Below, piece after piece: positions 2,819 to 23,176 of a stretch of 38,223 nt of DNA. The DNA lies in NCBI GenBank assembly GCA_017440575.1, contig JAFSGY010000042.1, positions 1-38,223 on the forward strand. The letters are read 5' to 3'. This DNA comes from Lachnospiraceae bacterium (GTDB lineage: Bacteria > Bacillota > Clostridia > Lachnospirales > Lachnospiraceae). The notes beneath the pieces are model-generated. The model saw only the letters and a program-made list of their open reading frames with translations. It was not told the DNA's origin and did no database searches. A program made the position numbers and the translations under genes. Numbering within the stretch: the first letter of the stretch is position 1; every line of letters begins with the position of its first letter.

Positions 2819-4165
2819 ATGCACAAAAGTGAAATTCGAACCTATAAACAGGCAGAAGAGTATATCTTGGAGGTGCCCAAGTTCACAACCAAGAATCCGT
2901 TGGAAGAAACGAGAGGCTTTTATCAATTTTTGCAGAAACGTGATTATAAGGAAGAGAGCCTGGGAAAAATCATTCATATTGCAGGAACTAATGGAAAGGG
3001 TTCGGTTTGTTCCTTTGTGAATTCGGTATGTTTGGAAAGTGGGTATCATGTAGGGATGTTTACGTCGCCTCATCTGATTACCATGCGTGAGCGATTTATG
3101 ATTGATGGTGAGATGGTTAGTGAAGAGGCTTTTTTGGATGCTTTTTTTTGGCTAGAGGAAGCAATTGATGCTTATCATGAGATAAGTCCGGATTACCAAC
3201 CTACCTTCTTTGAAAGGCTGTTCTTTATGAGCTTGTGCCTATTTCAAAAGGCAGGAGTGGATATTTCCATTATGGAAACGGGACTTGGTGGAAGACTGGA
3301 TACGACTAATGTTATGGAAAAACCATCTGTATGCGTGATTACAGAGATTGGATTGGACCATATGGCGTATCTGGGAGAAACGATAGAACAGATTGCAGGG
3401 GAGAAGGCAGGCATTATCAAACCGGGAATTCCTGTGGTATATGCAGATAAAAGAGGTGAGAGCTCTGTCGTAATAGAGAGAATTGCTAAGGAGAAAGAGG
3501 CATGTTGCTATAAAGTGTCGAAAAATGCATATAAAATTAATAAAATTCAAAAAAAATGCATTGATTTTTCAGTGTGCAGTCGGTATTATGATTATGTTAG
3601 ACTTGTAGTGGAGACGGCGGCTGTATATCAGGTTGAAAATGCTACAATCGCTATGAGTGCATTAGAGGTCTTAAAAGAAAAGGAGCAGTTGACTCAGATT
3701 ACGCAGGAAACCATGCAAAGTGGAATACGTAAGATGCGATGGCCGGGGAGGATGGAAGAGGTACTTCCGCAGGTATTTATTGATGGTGCGCATAATGAGG
3801 ATGGTGTAGAGGCTTTTCTTGCGTCCGTGAAGGCGGGCTGGCAGCAGGAAGACGGAAAGCGGTGTTTTCTTATCTTCTCTGCAGTTAATGATAAGAAATA
3901 TGATAAAATGATAGAAATGCTTGCGGAACTTTCCTGTGTAACGGATTTTTGCATTACAAGGATTCCGGGGCAGAGGGGCGTCAGAATTGACGAACTGGAG
4001 AAACAATTTAGGATTTATACCAATCGAGATATACATGTCTTTGAAGAAATAAGTGATGCATTTGAATTTTGTATGCATCAAAAGGGGGAAGGGGATGTGG
4101 TATATATCGTTGGTTCATTATATTTGGCAGGTCTTGTAGAAGATCTGGTAAAGGGTAGTCTGTAA
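2819..4165 (+). CDS. folC: Bifunctional folylpolyglutamate synthase/dihydrofolate synthase
   Basis: FolC adds glutamate to dihydropteroate and/or to folates, an ATP-dependent Mur-ligase-type reaction in the cytoplasm. The P-loop GTNGKGS is at about residues 56-62, followed by the FTSPHL motif that binds substrate, the GLGGRLDTTN motif and the ITEIGLDH motif, then EKAGIIKP and the C-terminal IDGAHN motif of the family. The length of 448 residues is normal. The ATG at 2819 is chosen because AGGAGG precedes it by 5 bases; an upstream TTG at 2801 overlaps that site and is less likely. The next ORF begins 42 bp downstream, suggesting co-transcription. Confidence 0.95.
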   Translation: MHKSEIRTYKQAEEYILEVPKFTTKNPLEETRGFYQFLQKRDYKEESLGKIIHIAGTNGKGSVCSFVNSVCLESGYHVGMFTSPHLITMRERFMIDGEMVSEEAFLDAFFWLEEAIDAYHEISPDYQPTFFERLFFMSLCLFQKAGVDISIMETGLGGRLDTTNVMEKPSVCVITEIGLDHMAYLGETIEQIAGEKAGIIKPGIPVVYADKRGESSVVIERIAKEKEACCYKVSKNAYKINKIQKKCIDFSVCSRYYDYVRLVVETAAVYQVENATIAMSALEVLKEKEQLTQITQETMQSGIRKMRWPGRMEEVLPQVFIDGAHNEDGVEAFLASVKAGWQQEDGKRCFLIFSAVNDKKYDKMIEMLAELSCVTDFCITRIPGQRGVRIDELEKQFRIYTNRDIHVFEEISDAFEFCMHQKGEGDVVYIVGSLYLAGLVEDLVKGSL

Positions 4166-4207
4166 ACAAACAGATGCCTTGGGTTGTGAGAAAGGTTTGG
4201 TATTACG

Positions 4208-4348
4208 ATGATAGAGTTTGAAGAAGAGTTAAAGAAGTTTCACCCTAGTCTTGAGGTCGAGGATGCTGAGGAAGCAATCTATAATCAGGATCTGACAGAC
4301 CTGGCAGATGTACTGGTAAAAATGGTAAAGGATGCAAAAGAAGAATAG
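4208..4348 (+). CDS. Small acidic hypothetical protein (46 aa)
   Basis: A 46-codon ORF lying snugly between folC (42 bp upstream) and the zinc-ribbon/TPR gene (14 bp downstream). It begins MIEFEEELKKFHPSLEVEDA and continues as a predicted amphipathic helix rich in Glu, Asp and Lys, ending KDAKEE. GAAAGG lies 12 bases before the ATG, a weak ribosome binding site. No domain is recognised. The tight fit between genes on the same strand, the absence of overlap, and a codon composition like its neighbours argue that it is a real gene in the folC operon. The acidic, helical composition suggests a small partner protein, but this is inference only. Confidence 0.65.
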   Translation: MIEFEEELKKFHPSLEVEDAEEAIYNQDLTDLADVLVKMVKDAKEE

Positions 4349-4362
4349 GGGAACTGTGAAAG

Positions 4363-5754
4363 ATGATATGTTATAACTGTGGTTGTCGCTTGTCGGAAAA
4401 GAATTTTTGTACCGGTTGCGGGGCTGATGTAACATTATATAAAAGAATTATATATGCCTCAAACCGTTTTTATAATGAAGCACTGGATAAGGCGCAGGTT
4501 AGAGATTTGTCGGGTGCCATTCATTGCTTACGTGAATGTTTGAAGCTGAATAAGAACCATATCGATGCAAGGAACCTTTTGGGACTTGTTTATTTTGAGC
4601 GCGGTGAAGTAGTTGCGGCATTAAGCGAATGGGTTATTAGCAAAAATATTAAGAGTGAAAAAAACATTGCGGATGATTATATCAATATGATTCAGAATAA
4701 TCCGGGAAGATTGGAAACCTTTAACCAGACGGTGAAAAAGTATAATCAGGCATTGGCTTATTGTCAGCAGGATAGCCTTGACTTAGCGGTAATCCAGCTC
4801 AAAAAGGTATTATCCATGAATCCGCGTTTTTTGCAGGCACATCAGCTTCTTGCGCTGCTCTATATTAATAATCAGGAGTGGGACAAGGCAAAGAAGGAGC
4901 TTGATAAGTGTCTTAAGATAGATACCAATAATACGATTACACTTCGCTATATGAAGGAAGTACAGGCGATGATGCCTGCCGAGGAGGAGCGTAGCAAGAA
5001 GAAAAAAGAAGCTATTGTATATCAAAGTGGTAACGATACGGTTATTCAGCCGGTTGGCAAGAAGGACAGTTCAGGTCTTCGAACTTTATTGAATCTGTTG
5101 CTAGGTGTAGTAATTGGTGTTGGAGTGGCATGGTTTTTAGTGCTTCCGGCAAGAGTACAGAATGAACAGACGAAGGCACAGACTGAGAAAAATGCAATCA
5201 GTGAGCAGTTGGATGCGAAGGCAGTTGAGGTGGCTGAGCTGACGAAGCAGGTAGAGAGTCTGATGCAGGAAAAAGACAGCTTAAATGTAAGTCTTAACGA
5301 GGCTCAGGGAGTTAATGCAGCTGTAATTGCTAGCAATGACCTGATTGAAGCAGCTGTGATGTATCTGAATAAAACAGGTGATGAGTTGGAGATAGCAGGT
5401 ATCATGGAAGAAATTACAGACGAATATCTGGAAAAGGAAGCGTCTGAGGAATTCATAGCATTGTATCAGGCATTGTTGGGAGAGATTGGTTCAACAGTTG
5501 CGGAGACATATTATAATACAGGATATGAAGCGTTCCGTACTGAGGAATATGAGACAGCCATAGAGAATCTGACCAAGGCATTTAAATATGAGCCGGAAAA
5601 TGGCGAGGCGTTATTTAATCTTGGAAATGCTTATCGCAAGAGTGGAGATGAAGCATCGGCAGTCAGTGTTTATAAACAGGTAATGGAGCTATTCCCGGAT
5701 ACAGAAAAGGCAAGAAAGTCTGAGAAATATATCGAAGATATACAGGGTTCATAA
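4363..5754 (+). CDS. Zinc-ribbon, TPR-repeat membrane protein
   Basis: A 463-residue protein with a short N-terminal zinc ribbon (C3-x2-C6 with C8, and C16-x2-C19). Tetratricopeptide repeats follow at about 35-200, with phrases such as AIHCLRECLKLNKNHIDARN and AVIQLKKVLSMNPRFLQAHQ. A single membrane segment (LLNLLLGVVIGVGVAWFLVL) lies at about 240-262, then a coiled coil of roughly 50 residues, and a final TPR pair (YETAIENLTKAFKYEPENGE) near the C-terminus. The zinc ribbon and first TPR set are predicted to be cytoplasmic and the last TPR set outside the membrane. It ends in a strong terminator. The function is unknown; the architecture suggests a scaffold, perhaps in envelope or cell-cycle assembly. 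Confidence 0.8.
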   Translation: MICYNCGCRLSEKNFCTGCGADVTLYKRIIYASNRFYNEALDKAQVRDLSGAIHCLRECLKLNKNHIDARNLLGLVYFERGEVVAALSEWVISKNIKSEKNIADDYINMIQNNPGRLETFNQTVKKYNQALAYCQQDSLDLAVIQLKKVLSMNPRFLQAHQLLALLYINNQEWDKAKKELDKCLKIDTNNTITLRYMKEVQAMMPAEEERSKKKKEAIVYQSGNDTVIQPVGKKDSSGLRTLLNLLLGVVIGVGVAWFLVLPARVQNEQTKAQTEKNAISEQLDAKAVEVAELTKQVESLMQEKDSLNVSLNEAQGVNAAVIASNDLIEAAVMYLNKTGDELEIAGIMEEITDEYLEKEASEEFIALYQALLGEIGSTVAETYYNTGYEAFRTEEYETAIENLTKAFKYEPENGEALFNLGNAYRKSGDEASAVSVYKQVMELFPDTEKARKSEKYIEDIQGS

Positions 5755-7634: not shown

Positions 7635-8483
7635 ATGAATGGAATCAATTATAGCAGTTTATTAAGTAACACAAATCTCTTCTCAAATCAGACAAAGTCT
7701 GTGCAGGAGGATGTAAAATATAAGGCAGGCTCTTTGGTTGAGAAGGAGAGTAGTGCAGTAGAAAATGCAGATCATGATACGGTAGAAATTAACGGTCAGT
7801 CAAGAGTACCAAAGGCTGGTTATGACAGACCAAAGCGTGTGCAGCAAAAGCCGGAGGAACGATATAAAGCGCTGGATGCTAATGGTATTCAGGAGGGAAT
7901 CAAGCTTAGTGATGCGGCAATAGATTTACTAAAGGAATTAAGAGAAAAATATGGTAACATGGAAATCTCGGTTGCAAAGTGGTCTACGGATGAGGAGCAG
8001 GACTATTATGCAAGAGGTTGCAAGAAGGATTACAGTGTATTAATGGATCCTGAATTATTAGAGAAAATGGCAGCAGATGAGTCTGTGAGAGCAGAATATG
8101 AATCTGTTTTAGATCAGGCAGGTGATAAATCAGCTGCATTAGAAGAAGCCTTAGGCGAGGATGCAGACAAGATTAAGAGCTTCAGCATCAGTATAGATGC
8201 AAATGGTAAGGTTTCTTATGCAGTACAGTTAATCAAAGACTTCGAAGAGAGAAATGCTAAGAGAGCAGAGGCTTCGGAGAAGTCAGCAGAAGAGATTCGC
8301 GAAGAGAAGTTAGAGGAGAGAAGAGCAAAGCGGCGAGAGGAAGAAAAGGAACGACTGGAAAGAATCACGGCCGATTCCATGGATGAATTGATTGAAAAGA
8401 TTAAGAATAAGCTCTATCCAGTGGAAGAGGAAGTAGAAGTAGAAGTAGAAGAGACACCGGTAGAGGACATCGTAGAAGAATAA
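7635..8483 (+). CDS. DUF6033 family protein
   Basis: A 282-residue soluble, highly charged protein matching the DUF6033 family. The recognisable core is at about 95-205: LSDAAIDLLKELREKYGNME, a DEEQDYYARG segment, and YSVLMDPELLEKMAADE. The first 90 residues are polar and probably disordered. The C-terminus is a Lys/Arg/Glu-rich helix (residues 210-250) ending in an acidic repeat tail (EEEVEVEVEE) encoded by a short GAAGTA tandem repeat. It is monocistronic, with a sigma-28-type promoter upstream and a strong terminator after it. The function is unknown; the promoter suggests co-expression with motility genes. Family assignment is from memory of the core motif. Confidence 0.75.
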   Translation: MNGINYSSLLSNTNLFSNQTKSVQEDVKYKAGSLVEKESSAVENADHDTVEINGQSRVPKAGYDRPKRVQQKPEERYKALDANGIQEGIKLSDAAIDLLKELREKYGNMEISVAKWSTDEEQDYYARGCKKDYSVLMDPELLEKMAADESVRAEYESVLDQAGDKSAALEEALGEDADKIKSFSISIDANGKVSYAVQLIKDFEERNAKRAEASEKSAEEIREEKLEERRAKRREEEKERLERITADSMDELIEKIKNKLYPVEEEVEVEVEETPVEDIVEE

Positions 8484-8498
8484 CCGGTTAGATATCGA

Positions 8499-8537
8499 AA
8501 AAAGAGGTGAAGTCTTGGGAGGACTTCACCTCTTTTT
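8499..8537. terminator. Bidirectional terminator between the DUF6033 gene and the PHP gene
   Basis: A 16-bp perfect stem (8499-8514 with 8522-8537, core GAGGTGAAGTC) with a 7-nt loop. It is flanked by A and T runs on the two sides, so it can end the rightward DUF6033 transcript and the leftward PHP transcript. Confidence 0.92.
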
Positions 8538-8546
8538 GGTATAGAA

Positions 8547-9335
8547 TTACAGTATGGTCTCAATATCTTTGATGTAGGTTTCCTGATTTTTCGCATCAAA
8601 CAGATAAACAGGAAGATCCGTCGCACGGTCAGGAGTCAGTGTAAGTAAATCTTCAGGAACCTGTAATTGGTAGCCTGTTCCAGACTTGATGCGTGTTACA
8701 TAGTCCTGAATGGAAGCAAGTGGCTCATCAAAGACGAGTCCATAAATGTTACCAATCACCGTTTCGCCAGTTCGATGAATATCGGAGCCTGCGGTCATAG
8801 GAATGTTGTGAGCCTTGGCATAGCGGTATGCAAGACGATCCTGATAAGCAGGATTACCAGCATTAGCAACCTCCCATGCATCACATTGAAAAGGGTGCAG
8901 TTCGATTTTGTCGAGATAGTCACGTTCACGGAAAGGATGTGCCTGAACAACAAGCCCGCCTGCTTTTTTGATCTCATGATAGTGTGTGATATGATCCCAT
9001 TCTAAAATCTCAGGGTGGGCGAGTAGCCATTCCTTATCAAGTCCATAAACAAGGTATTCATCAGGACCAAAGCGGCATTCCCATGCAAAGAATACTTGAA
9101 GTTCTTGCTTGTCTCCTTCTGCTTTCGCATCTTCATAGCCTTGACAGAACAGGTTTACACGTTCTTCCCAAGGAAGATTACTTGGAATACAGGTATTACC
9201 GTTGAAGAAATGGTCTGTTACGATGATACCGGTGTACCCTTTTTCCTTATAAAAGGATATATAATCAGCGCCTCTGCTGCGTCCACAGGCACTTGCCTGA
9301 ACGGTGTGCAGATGTGTTTCGTATAGATAAGACAT
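8547..9335 (-). CDS. PHP-domain metal-dependent hydrolase
   Basis: A 262-residue protein of the PHP (polymerase and histidinol phosphatase) superfamily, which hydrolyses phosphoesters using a metal cluster. Motifs seen are ETHLHT at 6-11, VTDHFF at about 39-44, VQAHPFR near 134-140 and GSDIHRTG near 188-195, together supplying the metal-binding His and Asp residues. The WEC segment after VFFA fits the acidic metal ligand. The ATG follows GGAGAAACGACCT. It is transcribed alone, on the opposite strand to its neighbours. The substrate is unknown; relatives include histidinol-phosphatase and nucleoside 3',5'-bisphosphate phosphatases. Confidence 0.88.
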   Translation of the reverse strand: MSYLYETHLHTVQASACGRSRGADYISFYKEKGYTGIIVTDHFFNGNTCIPSNLPWEERVNLFCQGYEDAKAEGDKQELQVFFAWECRFGPDEYLVYGLDKEWLLAHPEILEWDHITHYHEIKKAGGLVVQAHPFRERDYLDKIELHPFQCDAWEVANAGNPAYQDRLAYRYAKAHNIPMTAGSDIHRTGETVIGNIYGLVFDEPLASIQDYVTRIKSGTGYQLQVPEDLLTLTPDRATDLPVYLFDAKNQETYIKDIETIL

Positions 9336-9362
9336 AGGTCGTTTCTCCTTTCAGATAGTGTT

Positions 9363-9391
9363 ACGGCATACGAAGTAAAGGGTATGCCCGT
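9363..9391. repeat. Imperfect inverted repeat in the PHP/decarboxylase intergenic region
   Basis: ACGGCATAC at 9363-9371 and GTATGCCCGT at 9382-9391 pair over nine bases with one bulge. It lies just upstream of the PHP ribosome binding site, in the 169-bp region between the divergent PHP and decarboxylase starts. It may be an operator or a leader hairpin. Confidence 0.3.
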
Positions 9392-9504
9392 TGAACAAGT
9401 ATTATCGTAGCACAAATTTAAACGAGGGTAAATAGTGTTGCTTGCAATGAACAGGGGAGTTGTATAAGATAGTAATATTAGAATATCTAGGAGAAGAGAG
9501 AAAT

Positions 9505-10971
9505 ATGTGTAATCAAGATAAAACACCGTTATTGGATGCCATTACGGAATTTATAGATACAAAGCCGGCATACTTTCGGATTCCGGGACACCGATTGGAG
9601 CGGGGAATCAGTAAGAAATGGACGGATAAGGTAGGGAAAGAAATTTTTGCTTATGATGTAACCGAAACACCATTTACCGATGATTTGCATAGTCCTGAGG
9701 GAGCAATTGAGGAAGCACAGGAGCTGTTACAGGAGCTTTATGGGGCAGAAAGAAGCTTTTTTCTAGTAAATGGAACGACCTGTGGAAATGAGGCGATGCT
9801 GTTAAGTGTTGCCTTGGAAGGACAAGAGGTTATGGTGGCAAGAAATGCGCACAAATCTGCCATGATGGGACTCATTATTTCAGGAGCAAAGCCAGTTTAT
9901 ATTATGCCTGAGATTTTGAGCGAATGGGGACTTCAGGGGGGGATTACGCCAGAGCAGGTAAGGCGTACCTTTGAAGCGCATCCTGCGTGTAGGGCGCTTT
10001 TTCTTGTAAGTCCGAGTTATTATGGGATTGTGTCGGATTTGAAGGCAATTGCTGATATCTGCCATGAATATGGGGCAATGCTATTGATCGATGAAGCACA
10101 TGGAGGACATTTGTACTTTCATGAAGATCTTCCGAAGGGAGCATTAGAGCAGGGCGCAGATATGTGTGTACAGAGTATGCATAAGGTGACAGGAGCACTT
10201 ACGCAGTCATCGGTGCTGCATATGAAGTCACAGCTTGTGGATGTAGAACGATTGGCGGCCAATCTCCATATTGTACAGAGTACAAGCCCAAATTACTTGC
10301 TCATGACGTCACTTGACTGTGCAAGATATGAGCTTGCCCTACATGGTACAGAGATGATGGAGCAGGCGTTGAGATTAGCAGAGGATGCGAGAAAAAGAAT
10401 TCAAGCAATTGACGGCTTTCGCTGTATGGGGCAGGAGGTAGTCGGACAGGCAGGCATTGCGGGCGTAGATGGAACGAGACTGATTATCAGTGCAAAGGAG
10501 TTTGGACTGACGGGCTTTGCGCTGGAAGAAATCTTATTTGAACGGTATGCAGTGAATATGGAGCTTGCCGATTATGAAAATGTACTTGCCATTGTGACAT
10601 ATGCCAATACGCAGGAAGAGCTGGAACGATTGGTTAAGGCATGTGAAGAGATTGCTCAGGAATATAGTAGGATGCAGGAAACTGCATGCGAACAACCTCA
10701 GCTTCCACAGCTGCCGGAGCAGATGCTTACACCAAGACAGGCGTATTTTGCTGAGGCAGAAGAGATTGCATGGCAGCAGGCAGTGGGAAGGATATCAGCA
10801 GAAATGATAGCACCATATCCGCCGGGGATTCCGATTATCTACCCTGGCGAATGCATCACGCAGGCAGTATGGGACTATTTAGAGAAGTTCCGTAGAGAGA
10901 AACGACATATTCATGGAAGTCGTGACGGTAGATTGGAGGTCATTAAGGTAATAAAAGAAGAGAGTGAGTAG
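9505..10971 (+). CDS. Orn/Lys/Arg decarboxylase family protein (PLP-dependent)
   Basis: A 488-residue fold-type I PLP enzyme of the Orn/Lys/Arg decarboxylase major-domain family, which makes polyamines or cadaverine/agmatine from basic amino acids. PLP-site motifs are DEAHGGH at about 196-202 and SMHKVTGALTQSS with Lys227 as the Schiff-base lysine. The N-terminal PAYFRIPGHR and the C-terminal YPPGIPIIYPGE are hallmarks of the short Gram-positive YaaO/SpeA-like group lacking the wing domain. ATG 9505 is preferred over an upstream TTG at 9460 because AGGAGAAGAGAG precedes it. Which amino acid is used cannot be told from sequence reading. Confidence 0.92.
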   Translation: MCNQDKTPLLDAITEFIDTKPAYFRIPGHRLERGISKKWTDKVGKEIFAYDVTETPFTDDLHSPEGAIEEAQELLQELYGAERSFFLVNGTTCGNEAMLLSVALEGQEVMVARNAHKSAMMGLIISGAKPVYIMPEILSEWGLQGGITPEQVRRTFEAHPACRALFLVSPSYYGIVSDLKAIADICHEYGAMLLIDEAHGGHLYFHEDLPKGALEQGADMCVQSMHKVTGALTQSSVLHMKSQLVDVERLAANLHIVQSTSPNYLLMTSLDCARYELALHGTEMMEQALRLAEDARKRIQAIDGFRCMGQEVVGQAGIAGVDGTRLIISAKEFGLTGFALEEILFERYAVNMELADYENVLAIVTYANTQEELERLVKACEEIAQEYSRMQETACEQPQLPQLPEQMLTPRQAYFAEAEEIAWQQAVGRISAEMIAPYPPGIPIIYPGECITQAVWDYLEKFRREKRHIHGSRDGRLEVIKVIKEESE

Positions 10972-15214: not shown

Positions 15215-15457
15215 TTGCAGGTACAAGAGGCGACCGTAAAAAGAATACAAGAACTTTGTGCCGACAAGAATATTAAAATCAATGAGCTTGCCCGTGTTGC
15301 AGGAATGGCTCCGTCAACGTTGAAAAATGTCATGAATGGTGGCAGTAAAAATACAGGAATTGTTACCATTGCGCAGATTTGTGATGGCTTGAATATAACA
15401 GTAAAGGAGTTTTTCGACAGCAAAGTATTTGAAGAACTAGAGCAGGAAATATCCTAA
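15215..15457 (+). CDS. XRE-family helix-turn-helix regulator, TTG start
   Basis: An 80-residue Cro/CI-type DNA-binding protein. The helix-turn-helix is seen in IKINELARVAGMAPSTLKNV, followed by GIVTIAQICDGLNITVKEFF, a typical single-domain XRE repressor. The start is a TTG preceded by AGGGGTGAG with good spacing; the next in-frame ATG would cut into the helix-turn-helix, so TTG is the best choice. It is 17 bp upstream of the LytTR regulator and co-directional with it, and therefore probably co-transcribed. Its likely targets are its own promoter or agrBD, which is inference. Confidence 0.85.
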   Translation: MQVQEATVKRIQELCADKNIKINELARVAGMAPSTLKNVMNGGSKNTGIVTIAQICDGLNITVKEFFDSKVFEELEQEIS

Positions 15458-15474
15458 AGATAATGTGAAGTACT

Positions 15475-16206
15475 ATGAAGAGAAATGTATTAATTATTGA
15501 AGATAATAAAGCGTGTATGGACGCACTGGTGGAGATAACAAGGAAATGTGATTCCGTCGGTGCTATTTTTTGTGCTGAAAACAAGGAAAAGGCATATGCT
15601 TATGCTATGGAAGAAACGATTGATTTGTTTCTGGTAGATATTATACTAAATCATTCGGAGCATCAGGATGTATCAGGGATGCGGTTTGTAGAGAAAATCA
15701 GGCAGATGGACAAGTACGAGTTCACGCCAGTTATTTTTATTACGAATCTGATTGATGAGGAAATGAATGCTTTCCATAATCTGCATTGCTATGGCTATAT
15801 TGAGAAGCCCTTTGACCCGGAAAAGCTTTACAAGCTGATCTCGTCGGCACTGAATTTTCCTTTGCAGAATAACAAAAACAATGGCTTTTTCTATTATAGG
15901 AAGGATGGCATTATCTATTCGATAGAGGTTGACCAGATTATCTATGCAGAGACCAGCTTTCGTAAATTAGTCATCTATACAACTTCCGATGAAATCGAGA
16001 TTCTATACAAAACGTGCAACAGTCTGTATAAGGAATTGCCAAGGGAATACTTTATCCAGTGTAACAGAAATGCAATCGTGAATCGCAAATACATTGAGTC
16101 TATTGATAAGACCAATCGGTATATCAAGATGAAAAATGGAAAAAGTGTTGAGATTGGAAGAATAATAGGTAAGGGGTTCTTTGAAGAGTTGGGTTATGAT
16201 AGTTAA
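15475..16206 (+). CDS. LytTR response regulator of the agr locus (AgrA-like)
   Basis: A 243-residue response regulator with an N-terminal receiver domain (IIEDN acidic pocket, phospho-acceptor Asp55 in LVDIIL, Lys in YIEKPFDP) and a C-terminal LytTR DNA-binding domain from about 140 (IYSIEVDQIIYAETSFRKLV to YFIQCNRNAIVNRKYIESID). LytTR proteins activate by binding paired direct repeats upstream of promoters. It lies between an XRE gene and an AgrC-like kinase whose start overlaps its last codons, so the pair is translationally linked. By position it should be the transcriptional output of the AgrD signal. Confidence 0.92.
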   Translation: MKRNVLIIEDNKACMDALVEITRKCDSVGAIFCAENKEKAYAYAMEETIDLFLVDIILNHSEHQDVSGMRFVEKIRQMDKYEFTPVIFITNLIDEEMNAFHNLHCYGYIEKPFDPEKLYKLISSALNFPLQNNKNNGFFYYRKDGIIYSIEVDQIIYAETSFRKLVIYTTSDEIEILYKTCNSLYKELPREYFIQCNRNAIVNRKYIESIDKTNRYIKMKNGKSVEIGRIIGKGFFEELGYDS

Positions 16207-17461
16207 TGTGGTGGCGGTTTTTTCAGAGTATATAAGTATTATTTTATTTTTACAAAAAGTATCTAAAAAGAAAATATTTTTTGATAAATATGTTATTTTA
16301 TTTTTCCTTACAGATTTAATAAGCGTATGGTTGACAAAAGAATTTGGTGAAAAATATGTTTGGATTAGTTTGGTGTCATATTCTAATTTCTTAATTTATA
16401 CTAGATTATGTTTGGTAAAGAAATGGGTTAATGCAATAAAAGTATGGGCACTAATGATTATTACGATACCTTGTCTGCAGCTAATGTTATATTATGGGAC
16501 TAAATTTGCGTTAGAAAAAGTTATTAGCAAGCAAATAATGGGGATTTTAATAAATATCCTTATAAGTTTGATATTTCTTTTTTGGAAGAATAAATATACA
16601 TATATAATTTTTCGTTCAGTGAATAAGATAAAGAATATAATTTTTATTTTTGTTTTTGGAGTATTGTTTTCATATTTATTATATATGTATAATTTTAATG
16701 GTATTATAAGTCCTAGTGTTATGATTCCTGTAATGGGTGGAATCACAGGTTTTTGTTTGGTATTTGTATTATGGACTAATGCTGAATATGAGAAAAAAAG
16801 TAAAGCAAAAGAGGTGCAATTATATGAGTTATATAATAAGACTTTTGAAGAGGCTATAAATACGATAAGAACTAGACAACATGAATTTGATAATCACATA
16901 AATGCAATAAAATGTTTGAATATGACAATACACAATCCTCAAGAGTTAATAAATGTGCAGAATGAATATTGTGATAAATTATTGGAGGAGAGTTCTGATA
17001 ATAGATTGTTGAAGATGAATGGAGAACCATTAATAATAGGATTTTTGTATTCAAAGTTTATGAATGCTAGAAAAGAGGGAATTATAATAGAACATCAGAT
17101 ACAAGCTATTGAGTTTAGAAATAAAATAAAAATTGTTGATTTGATAGAAGTTCTTGGTGTAATGATAGATAATGCTATTGAAGCGTTGAGAGATGAGAAG
17201 TTTGTTAACAAAAAACTTATTGTTAGAATCTTGTGTGAAGATGGTGGAAAAATTGTGATAGAAGTATCTAATAGAAGCAAAAAATATTTAAATAATGAAA
17301 TCGAAAAATTCTGTATGTTGGGGTATACTACTAAAGGCGAAAAACGAGGAATGGGATTGTCACGCGTGGTGGAAATAGTTAAGAATTATAAGGGAGATTT
17401 CTTTATCGGAAATGTCAGTTATGATGAACAAAATTATTTATGTTTTAAAATTATTATTTAA
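16196..17461 (+). CDS. AgrC-like GHKL sensor histidine kinase
   Basis: A polytopic receptor kinase of the AgrC type. Six or so hydrophobic segments fill residues 1-190, as in peptide pheromone receptors. The phospho-accepting motif is IRTRQHEFDNHINAIK, the N box is VLGVMIDNAIEAL and the glycine box is KGEKRGMGLSRVVEIV near the C-terminus. It uses ATG 16196, overlapping the regulator gene; TTG 16181 with AAGGGG upstream is an alternative. The gene body is clearly more AT-rich than the upstream regulator, with many ATA, AAT and TTA codons, and returns to local composition near 17340. This hints that the sensor has a separate history. Its ligand is presumably the AgrD peptide encoded convergently. 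Confidence 0.92.
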   Translation: MIVNVVAVFSEYISIILFLQKVSKKKIFFDKYVILFFLTDLISVWLTKEFGEKYVWISLVSYSNFLIYTRLCLVKKWVNAIKVWALMIITIPCLQLMLYYGTKFALEKVISKQIMGILINILISLIFLFWKNKYTYIIFRSVNKIKNIIFIFVFGVLFSYLLYMYNFNGIISPSVMIPVMGGITGFCLVFVLWTNAEYEKKSKAKEVQLYELYNKTFEEAINTIRTRQHEFDNHINAIKCLNMTIHNPQELINVQNEYCDKLLEESSDNRLLKMNGEPLIIGFLYSKFMNARKEGIIIEHQIQAIEFRNKIKIVDLIEVLGVMIDNAIEALRDEKFVNKKLIVRILCEDGGKIVIEVSNRSKKYLNNEIEKFCMLGYTTKGEKRGMGLSRVVEIVKNYKGDFFIGNVSYDEQNYLCFKIII

Positions 17462-17465
17462 TACA

Positions 17466-17503
17466 AAATACGTGTTTAGTGAGTTGAGACTAAACACGTA
17501 TTT
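17466..17503. terminator. Bidirectional terminator between agrC and agrD
   Basis: A 15-bp perfect stem (17466-17480 with 17489-17503, core ACGTGTTTAGT / ACTAAACACGT) with an 8-nt loop. It sits 5 bp past the kinase stop and 2 bp past the agrD stop, with T-rich flanks on both strands, so it serves both convergent transcripts. Confidence 0.92.
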
Positions 17504-17505
17504 CT

Positions 17506-17643
17506 TTATTTTTCAAGTGTAGGAAACTCAGGTTCGCCAAAAAAGAATACACAGGGACAACAATATGGTAATTCCCAATACGACGACAACATCATAAACG
17601 ACAACACCGACGTTGTAGCCATTGTCATAAAACGCTTAATCAT
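17506..17643 (-). CDS. agrD: AgrD-like autoinducing peptide precursor (45 aa)
   Basis: A 45-codon gene starting 2 bp after the agrB stop, with AGAGGTG before its ATG. Residues 1-21 are a hydrophobic/amphipathic leader (MIKRFMTMATTSVLSFMMLS). The rest contains YCCPCVFFFGEPEFPTLEK. By comparison with known AgrD proteins (for example the clostridial ring CLWFT followed by a Pro-Glu-x-Pro tail), the thiolactone ring is predicted as Cys31-V-F-F-F35. The cleaved tail would begin at Gly36, and its x-x-P-E-x-P pattern (GEPEFP) matches the family. Cys28 and Cys29 before the ring are unusual. AgrB should process and cyclise it, and the AgrC-like kinase should sense the product. These roles are inferred from family and position. 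Confidence 0.85.
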   Translation of the reverse strand: MIKRFMTMATTSVLSFMMLSSYWELPYCCPCVFFFGEPEFPTLEK

Positions 17644-17645
17644 GT

Positions 17646-18200
17646 TTATTCACCTCTTTTCTTTCGTAATTTTGCTATAATCAACTGCACAGAGTGCAGA
17701 AGTATAGTCCAATATCCCACAGCGAAGTATTTCGTTTGATAGAACAAGATAAGCAGTAGGATTCCGAAGCTGGTTGCCAGTAAGGTTTTCTTCTTACGAT
17801 GGATGATTTCTCTTTCTGGTAATGGAGGTCTAGATGCAGAAAGGATTGGTGAAAGTGCACCATTGATTATCGTACATAGTCCCAGACTAATTATCGCACT
17901 CCAAAAAGGGATACTAATTCCAGTTAGAGGAATAGTTACGAGAAGAAAGTAACCAAGTGAGAAGAATAGGCAGGACATGTAATGCTTAAAATGTAGTCCG
18001 CCGGAGCTTAATCTCAGTGGCAGGAGGATGATAAATGCAAATAGAAATAAATCTAATCTGTGGAGAAGAGCAAACAAGACAATAAAAAGTAATAGCTTAC
18101 TGACATCGTAGAAGATGCAGGTAATAGAAAAAATTAACATTTTTTTATCCCGTTCGCTGATATTCATATTTGCATCAATAAAGTTCGATAATATTTGCAT
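17646..18200 (-). CDS. agrB: AgrB-like peptide-processing membrane endopeptidase
   Basis: A 184-residue polytopic membrane protein that cleaves the AgrD C-terminal tail and forms the peptide thiolactone. The catalytic pair is visible as His70 and Cys77 in LRLSSGGLHFKHYMSC, with the same 7-residue spacing as in Staphylococcus AgrB, preceded by the conserved Arg and GG. Hydrophobic segments lie at about 25-65, 78-120 and 138-172. The ATG follows GGAGGT by 7 bases. It is the first gene of the agrB-agrD unit and diverges from an XRE gene. The symbol is by family; orthology to the staphylococcal gene is not implied. Confidence 0.93.
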   Translation of the reverse strand: MQILSNFIDANMNISERDKKMLIFSITCIFYDVSKLLLFIVLFALLHRLDLFLFAFIILLPLRLSSGGLHFKHYMSCLFFSLGYFLLVTIPLTGISIPFWSAIISLGLCTIINGALSPILSASRPPLPEREIIHRKKKTLLATSFGILLLILFYQTKYFAVGYWTILLHSVQLIIAKLRKKRGE

Positions 18201-18316
18201 GGTTCAAACCTCCAATGAGGTTAGTTTACAGGAATAGAATAAAAATCCTGCAAAAACGGCACAGAATGTGTAGTCTGACGTACAGATGAGAGAATATATA
18301 GAAATGCCTTGGTTAC

Positions 18317-18347
18317 TACGTGAAAATAGCAAGTTAATGCGTAAAAT
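18317..18347 (-). promoter_or_regulatory. Candidate LytTR direct repeats upstream of agrB
   Basis: On the minus strand, ATTTTACGC (18347-18339) and ATTTTCACGT (18327-18318) form an imperfect direct repeat about 20 bp, two helical turns, apart. LytTR regulators typically bind such pairs. The distal copy includes the TTTACGCAT 9-mer also found at 15146. No strong promoter hexamers lie immediately downstream, as expected for an activated promoter. Confidence 0.35.
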
Positions 18348-18413: not shown

Positions 18414-18653
18414 ATGCGGGATGAAGAAATCTATAAGGAAGCGGGAGTTAGGATTCAGGGATTGCGAGAACGGTGGAGTTTAACAAGAGAAGAGATGGCA
18501 GAATTTGTTGGGCTTTCTGCAAAACATATTTATGAGATAGAGGCAGGGAGAAAAGGCTTTTCTGCAAGTACCTTGTATCGGATCGCGACAGCGTTTGGAG
18601 TAGGCTGTGATTATATTATGACAGGAAAAGAGGATAAGAACCTTGAAGCATAA
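18414..18653 (+). CDS. XRE-family helix-turn-helix regulator
   Basis: A 79-residue single-domain Cro/CI-type regulator. The HTH (LTREEMAEFVGLSAKHIYEI) is followed by EAGRKGFSASTLYRIATAFG and GCDYIMTG, a standard XRE layout. It diverges from agrB across a 213-bp region, so it may act on the agrBD promoter. AAAAGGA lies about 12 bases before the ATG, a loosely spaced ribosome binding site. Its stop codon is inside the loop of a very strong terminator hairpin, so the last codons are part of the terminator stem. Confidence 0.85.
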   Translation: MRDEEIYKEAGVRIQGLRERWSLTREEMAEFVGLSAKHIYEIEAGRKGFSASTLYRIATAFGVGCDYIMTGKEDKNLEA

Positions 18654-21767: not shown

Positions 21768-22457
21768 ATGAATATACTTATTTGTGACGATGAACCGCAA
21801 ATTTTACATCAAATATCAGAAAAAGTACATAATGATTTCCCGGAGTGGCAGATTATGAAGGTAGGCAATTCGACAGAATTGCTGGGGTTACTTCAAGAGC
21901 AGGAATGTGATATTTTATTGTTAGATATTGACATGCCTGTCATAAATGGATTAGACATTGCAAGAAGGTTAGAGAACCTAAAAAAGAAACCGTTGCTGAT
22001 ATTTGTGACAAGCCATGATGAATTGGTGTATGACAGTCTGCAGTTTCATCCGTTTGGATTCGTGAGAAAGAGTTATCTTGAGACAGAACTTCCAAGAGTA
22101 TTGCGAGATTGCGAAAAAGAAATAAACAGCCATAGCAGGCACTATCATTTCCGTACTTCGGAGGGAGAGATTAAGCTCTTGCTGGATGATATTTTGTATT
22201 TTGAATCAGAAGGAAATTATATTAGTGTTTATGCGAAGGACATAAGCTATCGCTTTCGGGAAACGATAACAACGCTTCAAAATACATTGGAGAAATTTGG
22301 TTTTATAAGAATACATAGAGGATTTCTGGTCAATCAGTCAGCTGTTGAGGTATTAGGAACGGATGAACTGAAGCTGTATAATGGCATGAAGCTTCCGATT
22401 GGAAGAAATTATGCAGAAACAGCCAAGAAACGGATGATGAGGTATATGCTGCAATGA
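21768..22457 (+). CDS. LytTR family response regulator
   Basis: A 229-residue response regulator: receiver domain with CDDEP acidic pocket and phospho-acceptor Asp in LLLDIDMPVING (residue 54), then a LytTR DNA-binding domain from about 125 (FRTSEGEIKLLLDDILYFES to IRIHRGFLVNQSAVEVLG). It is the first gene of a six-gene, tightly packed unit with a kinase and an ABC-2 transporter. The kinase ATG overlaps its stop (ATGA), so the two are coupled. AGAAGG precedes the ATG by about 13 bases, loosely spaced. It likely controls its own operon, whose long leader lies upstream. Confidence 0.92.
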   Translation: MNILICDDEPQILHQISEKVHNDFPEWQIMKVGNSTELLGLLQEQECDILLLDIDMPVINGLDIARRLENLKKKPLLIFVTSHDELVYDSLQFHPFGFVRKSYLETELPRVLRDCEKEINSHSRHYHFRTSEGEIKLLLDDILYFESEGNYISVYAKDISYRFRETITTLQNTLEKFGFIRIHRGFLVNQSAVEVLGTDELKLYNGMKLPIGRNYAETAKKRMMRYMLQ

Positions 22458-23176
22458 TATGGCAAAAGAAAGAAAAAACGGAATATCAGATATTGGATGA
22501 AAAATATCAAAAGGTATTAGGCGAAAAGGCTGAACTTGCATATGAATTGGAAGAGGTCAAAGCCTCAATGGGACAAATTATAGAACAAGATGTGCAGATT
22601 CGGGAGTTACATGAGAGTGTGCGAAGGATAAAGCATGATATGAAAAATCATATGATGGTAATTGCGGCATATCTGAATGAGGAAAATTATGAGCAGGCAA
22701 AAGCCTATACATCAGAGATTCTGGATAAGCTAAATGCCGTTCACAGCTACATAGAAACAGGGAATTCGCTGTTAAACCATATTTTAAATGAGAAGCTGAA
22801 TCTGGCAAGGGCTTTAGGAATCTCTGTTAAGGCAGAGATTGAGAATGTATCTTTTGCGAAAATGGAAAGCCTTGATTTTTCGGCACTATTATCTAATATT
22901 CTGGACAATGCGATAGAAGCATGTCAGAAGGAGAGAGAACCGGAATTACAGGTAAGAATATCAATAAAAAGGGGATATGAGGTGATTTTGGTTAAAAATA
23001 TGACAGAGATGTCAGTGTTAAAAAACAACCCGGAACTTCATACTACGAAGGAATCAAAGGAGTCACATGGTATGGGGATTACGCAGATAAAAGCAATTGT
23101 TCAAAAATACAATGGTCTGTGTGATTTCTATGAGGAAGAGGGATGGTTCTGTGTGAGTGCGTTTATCCCTATATAG
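22454..23176 (+). CDS. Soluble GHKL-domain sensor histidine kinase
   Basis: A 240-residue kinase of the same GHKL/HPK10 class as AgrC but without any membrane segment: it begins with a coiled coil (residues 8-55). The phospho-acceptor motif is RRIKHDMKNHMMVIAAYLNE, the N box is LLSNILDNAIEAC and the glycine motif is SHGMGITQIKAIVQKYNG. A kinase of this class with no membrane domain must receive its signal inside the cell or through a partner such as the adjacent ABC transporter. It overlaps the response regulator gene by 4 bases. The sequence is intact and does not look truncated, since the coiled coil leads directly into the dimerisation helix. Confidence 0.9.
   Translation: MIWQKKEKTEYQILDEKYQKVLGEKAELAYELEEVKASMGQIIEQDVQIRELHESVRRIKHDMKNHMMVIAAYLNEENYEQAKAYTSEILDKLNAVHSYIETGNSLLNHILNEKLNLARALGISVKAEIENVSFAKMESLDFSALLSNILDNAIEACQKEREPELQVRISIKRGYEVILVKNMTEMSVLKNNPELHTTKESKESHGMGITQIKAIVQKYNGLCDFYEEEGWFCVSAFIPI

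Follow-up and report, generated by a model that had tools for sequence, protein, structure and literature searches.

An apparently complete Agr-type quorum-sensing module in a Lachnospiraceae genome, with cysteine and serine exchanged at the predicted ring position of related AgrD precursors

Results

Gene content of the locus

The window analyzed here is a 38,223-nucleotide stretch of a Lachnospiraceae genome (contig JAFSGY010000042.1, assembly GCA_017440575.1; 2.8 Mb in 122 contigs, 78% complete). It carries agrB (17646..18200, minus strand), which encodes a membrane endopeptidase/cyclase of 184 residues that matches Pfam PF04647 with an E value of 5.4e-26. Its His70 and Cys77, which we take to be the catalytic pair of AgrB, are invariant across 12 aligned AgrBs, and the same H-x6-C arrangement is found in all 103 AgrBs for which we called an AgrD. 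An AgrB profile gave no match at E 1 against solved structures. Only 2 nt after the agrB stop begins agrD (17506..17643, minus strand), a 45-codon reading frame with a ribosome-binding-like AGAGGTG upstream of it.

The kinase and regulator genes adjoin agrBD on the opposite strand and stand outside its operon. The LytTR response regulator, which is AgrA-like (15475..16206, plus strand), contains Response_reg (E 1.1e-14) and LytTR (E 1.5e-16) domains and is followed by an AgrC-like sensor kinase (16196..17461, plus strand) with N-terminal hydrophobic segments within residues 22–190, the H-box RQHEFDNH and a GHKL ATPase domain (HATPase_c_5 of Pfam, E 9.9e-12). The in-frame ATG at 16196 was taken as the kinase start from the sequence, and the searches used 16211 or a TTG at 16181. 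The kinase also matches the NCBIfam model HisKinAgrCStaph with an E value of 7.1e-11, at 41.9 bits and thus far under that model's cut-off of 500. The 44 nt that separate the ends of the kinase and agrD genes contain a hairpin (17466..17503) whose 15-pair stem is followed by a T-rich stretch; it is terminator-like on the plus strand (−18.9 kcal/mol, z −4.7).

Two Xre-type regulator genes complete the picture. XreB (18414..18653, plus strand; HTH_19, E 2.4e-10) is divergent from agrB, and XreA (15215..15457, plus strand; HTH_26, E 1.4e-11) precedes the LytTR regulator. The identification as an Agr locus with a kinase and a LytTR regulator nearby, made earlier from the DNA alone, is thus borne out by the domain matches. 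Outside the agr module, a second LytTR regulator and a short GHKL kinase (240 residues), followed by ABC-transporter-like reading frames, lie at 21768–23176 on the plus strand.

The AgrD precursor and its predicted ring

The 45-residue precursor, MIKRFMTMATTSVLSFMMLSSYWELPYCCPCVFFFGEPEFPTLEK, was assigned from its reading frame and from the pattern that is conserved behind agrB. It has the features of an AgrD: a hydrophobic leader (residues 1–27), a Cys-rich core (C28–F35) and an acidic, proline-containing tail (G36–K45). Ring positions are counted here from the Glu of the G-E-P motif that follows the core, so that the ring-starting residue is position −6. Across 14 close-clade loci with a called AgrD, including the window and the genome's own paralog, the position five residues ahead of the invariant G-E-P holds Cys in seven and Ser in seven. 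The last ring residue is Phe, G-E-P follows and the tail has its closing Pro in all 14, which likewise share the overall pattern [C/S]-x4-G-E-P. Because this core is fixed in the close clade, we placed the ring at Cys31–Phe35 (C-V-F-F-F; codons 17539..17553, minus strand). The alignment therefore supports a predicted five-residue ring starting at Cys31, in agreement with the original prediction.

That prediction had also raised alternative rings through the C-C-P-C sequence. Among the same 14 loci, Cys is found at −9 in four and at −8 in one, the window itself. The extra cysteines are therefore local, and alternative rings are possible on the residues present, though not favored. A fifteenth close-clade AgrD, that of L006, is interrupted by an assembly gap (1101–1387) whose run of N is flanked on either side by the codons for PYTGLCT; its end reads CTFFFGEPEYP. 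With the window's AgrD as query, a search of the genomes G000, G020 and G031 returned the query's own locus in G000, the gapped AgrD in G031 at E 0.012, and six further matches, all weak.

Conservation of the module among relatives

The closest AgrBs (14 records, L032–L045 of 23 loci) are 40–83% identical to the window's and come from Lachnospiraceae; 12 of the 14 records are metagenome-assembled, and some derive from the gut of cows, deer or goats. Most similar is an AgrB of G020, at 83% over the first 96 residues. At E 1e-20 or better, AgrB is present in 14/38 genomes of the genus (our own included), and it was found in 20/397 genomes of a family sample.

Gene order was compared at 17 close-clade loci, namely the window, L188, L189, L190 and L032–L045 without L041, which is the same place as L190. 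Near-duplicates in the close clade are L043/L044 and L008/L009. An XreB-like gene is divergent from agrB in 15 of the 17; it is absent in L033, whose contig starts 700 bp upstream, and lies elsewhere in L035, whose different gene order we count against our preferred explanation. Where the sequence extends far enough, the kinase gene is convergent with agrD in 14 of 15 close-clade loci, as it is in all nine outer loci (L046–L054). XreA precedes the regulator in 9 of the 14 close-clade loci whose sequence covers that place, and in six of the nine outer loci the regulator gene is located upstream of agrB. The module usually includes one or two genes for Xre regulators. In L037, XreB and agrB are about 880 bp apart (4122–5001), compared with about 210–230 bp in the window and the paralog, and this stretch holds several operator-like repeats (4231–4266, and 4294–4385 and 4976–5006 on the minus strand).

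The two halves of the kinase differ in their conservation. Compared with the window's kinase, the sensor half is 13–32% identical and the kinase half 26–51% (L050 was left out as too short), and the sensor half is the lower in all 22 comparisons. This is as expected for a diversifying receptor that tracks a changing signal. Together with the adjacency of the kinase gene, the contrast is evidence, though not proof, that the peptide and this receptor may be paired.

A second agr module in the same genome

A second AgrB of this genome (L188, contig C119) is 48% identical to the window's, and its only stop is the terminal one. The AgrD behind it reads TTGN-SLFFF-GEPEYP, with Ser at the ring position. 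This copy comes with a divergent Xre gene, a convergent kinase and a LytTR regulator of its own (L188:4863–8802). At the place of XreA stands a longer HTH-like protein (8134–8802), with a recombinase-like reading frame beyond it (8978–9904), both named by eye.

A candidate operator upstream of agrB

By eye, we noticed in the alignment of upstream regions a direct repeat, ACGCATTAA-12 bp-ACGTAGTAA (18313..18342, minus strand), which we then tested. Averaged over 14 upstream regions, self-matching at a lag of 21 bp was the highest of 26 lags, and none of 300 shuffles scored as high. In four of these regions (the window, L188, L038 and L036) the best self-matching segment coincides with the repeat; in the remaining ten it is located elsewhere or is shifted in register. 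A half-site model was built from nine other loci, with half-sites chosen by eye in an alignment that included the window. Of 229,338 placements scored in the window, this model put the repeat at the top, and it did the same for the paralog's site among the 60,462 placements in that contig. A 13-bp spacer (lag 22) is present in seven of the nine sites behind the model, and at that lag the mean self-match is not raised; the lag-21 signal is therefore carried mainly by the window, L188, L038 and L036. A stricter pattern found two matches in the genome, both upstream of agrB, and none in the reversed control, but it was derived from the window and paralog sites, the very sites matched.

The repeat is clear in the window, its paralog and one other relative, and weaker or absent in others. 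G020 has no recognizable repeat upstream of either agrB copy (best 5 and 8 mismatches), and none of its top half-site matches lies upstream of agrB in the right orientation; its AgrDs are out of view because both agrB copies stop at contig ends. In L040, no upstream repeat is among the top four half-site matches, and in the window none of the top six lies in front of the kinase and regulator genes. The lack of a recognizable repeat in G020 and L040 counts against our preferred explanation. A background AgrA half-site consensus fitted just two of 15 upstream regions, those of L043 and L044, and was discarded. LytTR operators are described in the relevant part of PMC6193735 as 9-bp repeats, mostly 12 bp apart and in some cases 11 or 13. 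The repeat shares this geometry and is a candidate operator for autoinduction.

Cysteine and serine at the ring position

AgrD-like reading frames were called with a script blind to the ring residue at 150 distinct AgrB loci. A first version, anchored on E-x-x-x-P, called 70/150, missed Y-Q-P tails and chose some wrong reading frames, and the anchor was therefore widened. The final caller found an AgrD-like reading frame behind agrB in 103/150 loci, with 5 running off the contig and 42 without a call. Sixty of these loci, picked by similarity to the window's AgrB, form the relatives set (L001–L089; 50 called, 4 off contig, 6 no call), and the other 90 are the best AgrB matches of a class-wide search in which Pfam AgrB was present in 74/196 genomes (53 called, 1 off contig, 36 no call). 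The caller missed L080, which is Ser by eye, and L028, a Cys candidate; neither enters any count. The original prediction had proposed asking whether the reading frame is conserved in relatives that keep agrB, and these counts, with the 14/14 pattern of the close clade, show that it is.

Among the 50 called relatives, position −6 is Ser in 32, Cys in 15 and Thr in two, and one further AgrD has Ser at −7. In the class set, where whichever Cys or Ser came first at −6, −7 or −8 was taken as the ring former, the 53 called AgrDs comprise 44 Cys by script plus L121 (mis-anchored by the caller and Cys on inspection), six Ser and two Thr. Cys thus leads in the class set, and Ser is the majority among relatives of the window's AgrB.

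To this picture we added a tree of 51 AgrBs (the 50 called relatives and L006, with L020 counted as Ser), on which Ser is again the majority (33). The Ser label requires eight changes on this tree, of which strongly supported branches force seven, and 8–10 on the bootstrap trees; Cys, Ser and Thr labels together require nine. Cys and Ser would accordingly appear to have been exchanged at least seven to eight times on a tree that has several long branches, two pairs of which meet. Among AgrB columns with at least 45 rows filled, none gives a clean separation between Cys and Ser precursors; the best has a mutual information of 0.65, without a residue specific to either type.

Two departures from these types were seen. 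Thr stands at the ring position in L022 (TIGII), L027 (TFGLV), L167 (TNTIS) and L185 (TNGIG), the last with a core that has no Cys or Ser at all; possible products are a Thr lactone, a ring of larger size or a linear peptide. In L101, L102, L113 and L114, Cys lies eight residues ahead of the anchor (N-T-[A/S]-C-x6-H-Q-P-K-M-P), which suggests seven-residue rings or another cut site.

Discussion

Taken as a whole, the locus is apparently an ordinary, complete Agr system and not a new kind of system. We put at roughly 85% the probability that it is an Agr-type peptide quorum-sensing module whose Cys31–Phe35 thiolactone is sensed by the adjacent kinase, with the regulator raising agrBD. Cleavage, ring chemistry, receptor pairing, binding and the direction of regulation are drawn here from knowledge of the family. 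AgrB would cut AgrD after Phe35, and Cys31 would close on Phe35 to give the five-residue thiolactone C-V-F-F-F with an N-terminal tail; the leader would be taken off during export by a host peptidase. The convergently transcribed kinase would sense the exported peptide and phosphorylate the LytTR regulator, which would bind the direct repeat upstream of agrB and raise agrBD transcription, closing the loop. The original prediction had the whole loop present: its gene set stands, while its operation is a matter of such reasoning, aided by the LytTR-type repeat, the conservation of which has gaps.

This model has rivals. Cys28 or Cys29 could close the ring instead, giving an eight- or seven-residue thiolactone, or the extra cysteines could form a disulfide once the peptide is exported. 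C-C-P-C does offer the residues, L008, L009 and L012 keep Cys at −9 together with Ser at −6, and larger rings exist, such as the nine-residue ring of Enterococcus faecalis GBAP in the part of PMC12312760 cited. We nevertheless regard this as unlikely, since −8 is Cys in the window only and −9 in 4/14, whereas −6 is Cys or Ser in every close-clade locus. It is also conceivable that the AgrBD product is a cyclic peptide that is no quorum signal (for example, a growth-inhibiting one), with the kinase and regulator answering another cue. The Ser-lactone AgrD pentapeptide of Clostridium thermocellum, when added to medium, did inhibit growth, as described in the portion of PMC5322536 cited. However, kinase and regulator genes are kept beside agrBD across the clade, the kinase is AgrC-like in layout, and agrB is preceded by a LytTR-type repeat, which makes a non-signaling product quite improbable.

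A more basic doubt is whether the short reading frame is a gene at all. It matches no Pfam or NCBIfam model, which we count against our preferred explanation, and very close relatives supplied no AgrD for comparing selection. Yet a chance or decayed reading frame that shares place, similar length, core and tail with those of relatives is scarcely credible.

On its own, this locus adds one predicted signal (C-V-F-F-F) to the known Agr family. The wider interest lies in the recurrent exchange of Cys and Ser inside a single AgrB lineage, and in the presence of a predicted channel of each chemistry in one genome. It seems probable, if less firmly so than the reading of the locus itself, that the ring-closing residue is an evolvable switch in this Lachnospiraceae lineage. 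One AgrB lineage would then serve both Cys (thiolactone) and Ser (lactone) precursors, with the at least seven to eight exchanges noted above, and the genome would run a Cys channel alongside a Ser channel, with a separate kinase and regulator for each. The related cyclases and precursors form a natural set for asking what lets AgrB use oxygen or sulfur as the nucleophile, and whether a change of nucleophile insulates two signaling channels in one cell.

Closure through Ser is itself known chemistry, since Ser lactones are established in Staphylococcus pseudintermedius, E. faecalis and C. thermocellum. Ser-closed peptides are treated as exceptions among thiolactones in the sections of PMC12312760 and PMC5322536 cited. 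In the open-licence literature we found neither a survey of Lachnospiraceae or Ser-majority AgrDs, a negative that carries little weight, nor a description of Cys/Ser switching at the frequency seen here.

Comparison with known Agr systems

With the staphylococcal agr system the locus shares the AgrB/AgrD pair, a five-residue ring (AIP-1 is YST[CDFIM] in Table 1 of PMC12312760), a GHKL kinase and a LytTR regulator. It differs in that the staphylococcal genes form a single agrBDCA operon, whereas agrBD and the kinase and regulator are convergent units here, and in the Xre genes attached to the window's module.

Separate agrBD and agrCA operons are described for clostridial agr in the corresponding section of PMC12312760. 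The rings given there for the group of C. acetobutylicum, C. perfringens and C. difficile agr2 include [CLWFT] and [CVLVTL], and C. difficile agr2 is listed as NSA[SSWVA], with a Ser ring. The core sequence of the window's AgrD differs from these, and its conserved neighborhood has Xre genes.

The C. thermocellum AgrD pentapeptide forms a ring of five residues that closes through Ser, as LC-MS/MS confirmed, and it resembles the Ser ring predicted for the second agr copy of this genome. In contrast, the window's copy has Cys, and the part of PMC5322536 cited reports no co-localized agr operon in C. thermocellum. The Ser-closed lactones of S. pseudintermedius (its AIP) and E. faecalis (GBAP), as covered in the cited parts of PMC3673130 and PMC12312760, are precedents for the Ser-type relatives, although they come from other genera and the ring of GBAP has nine residues.
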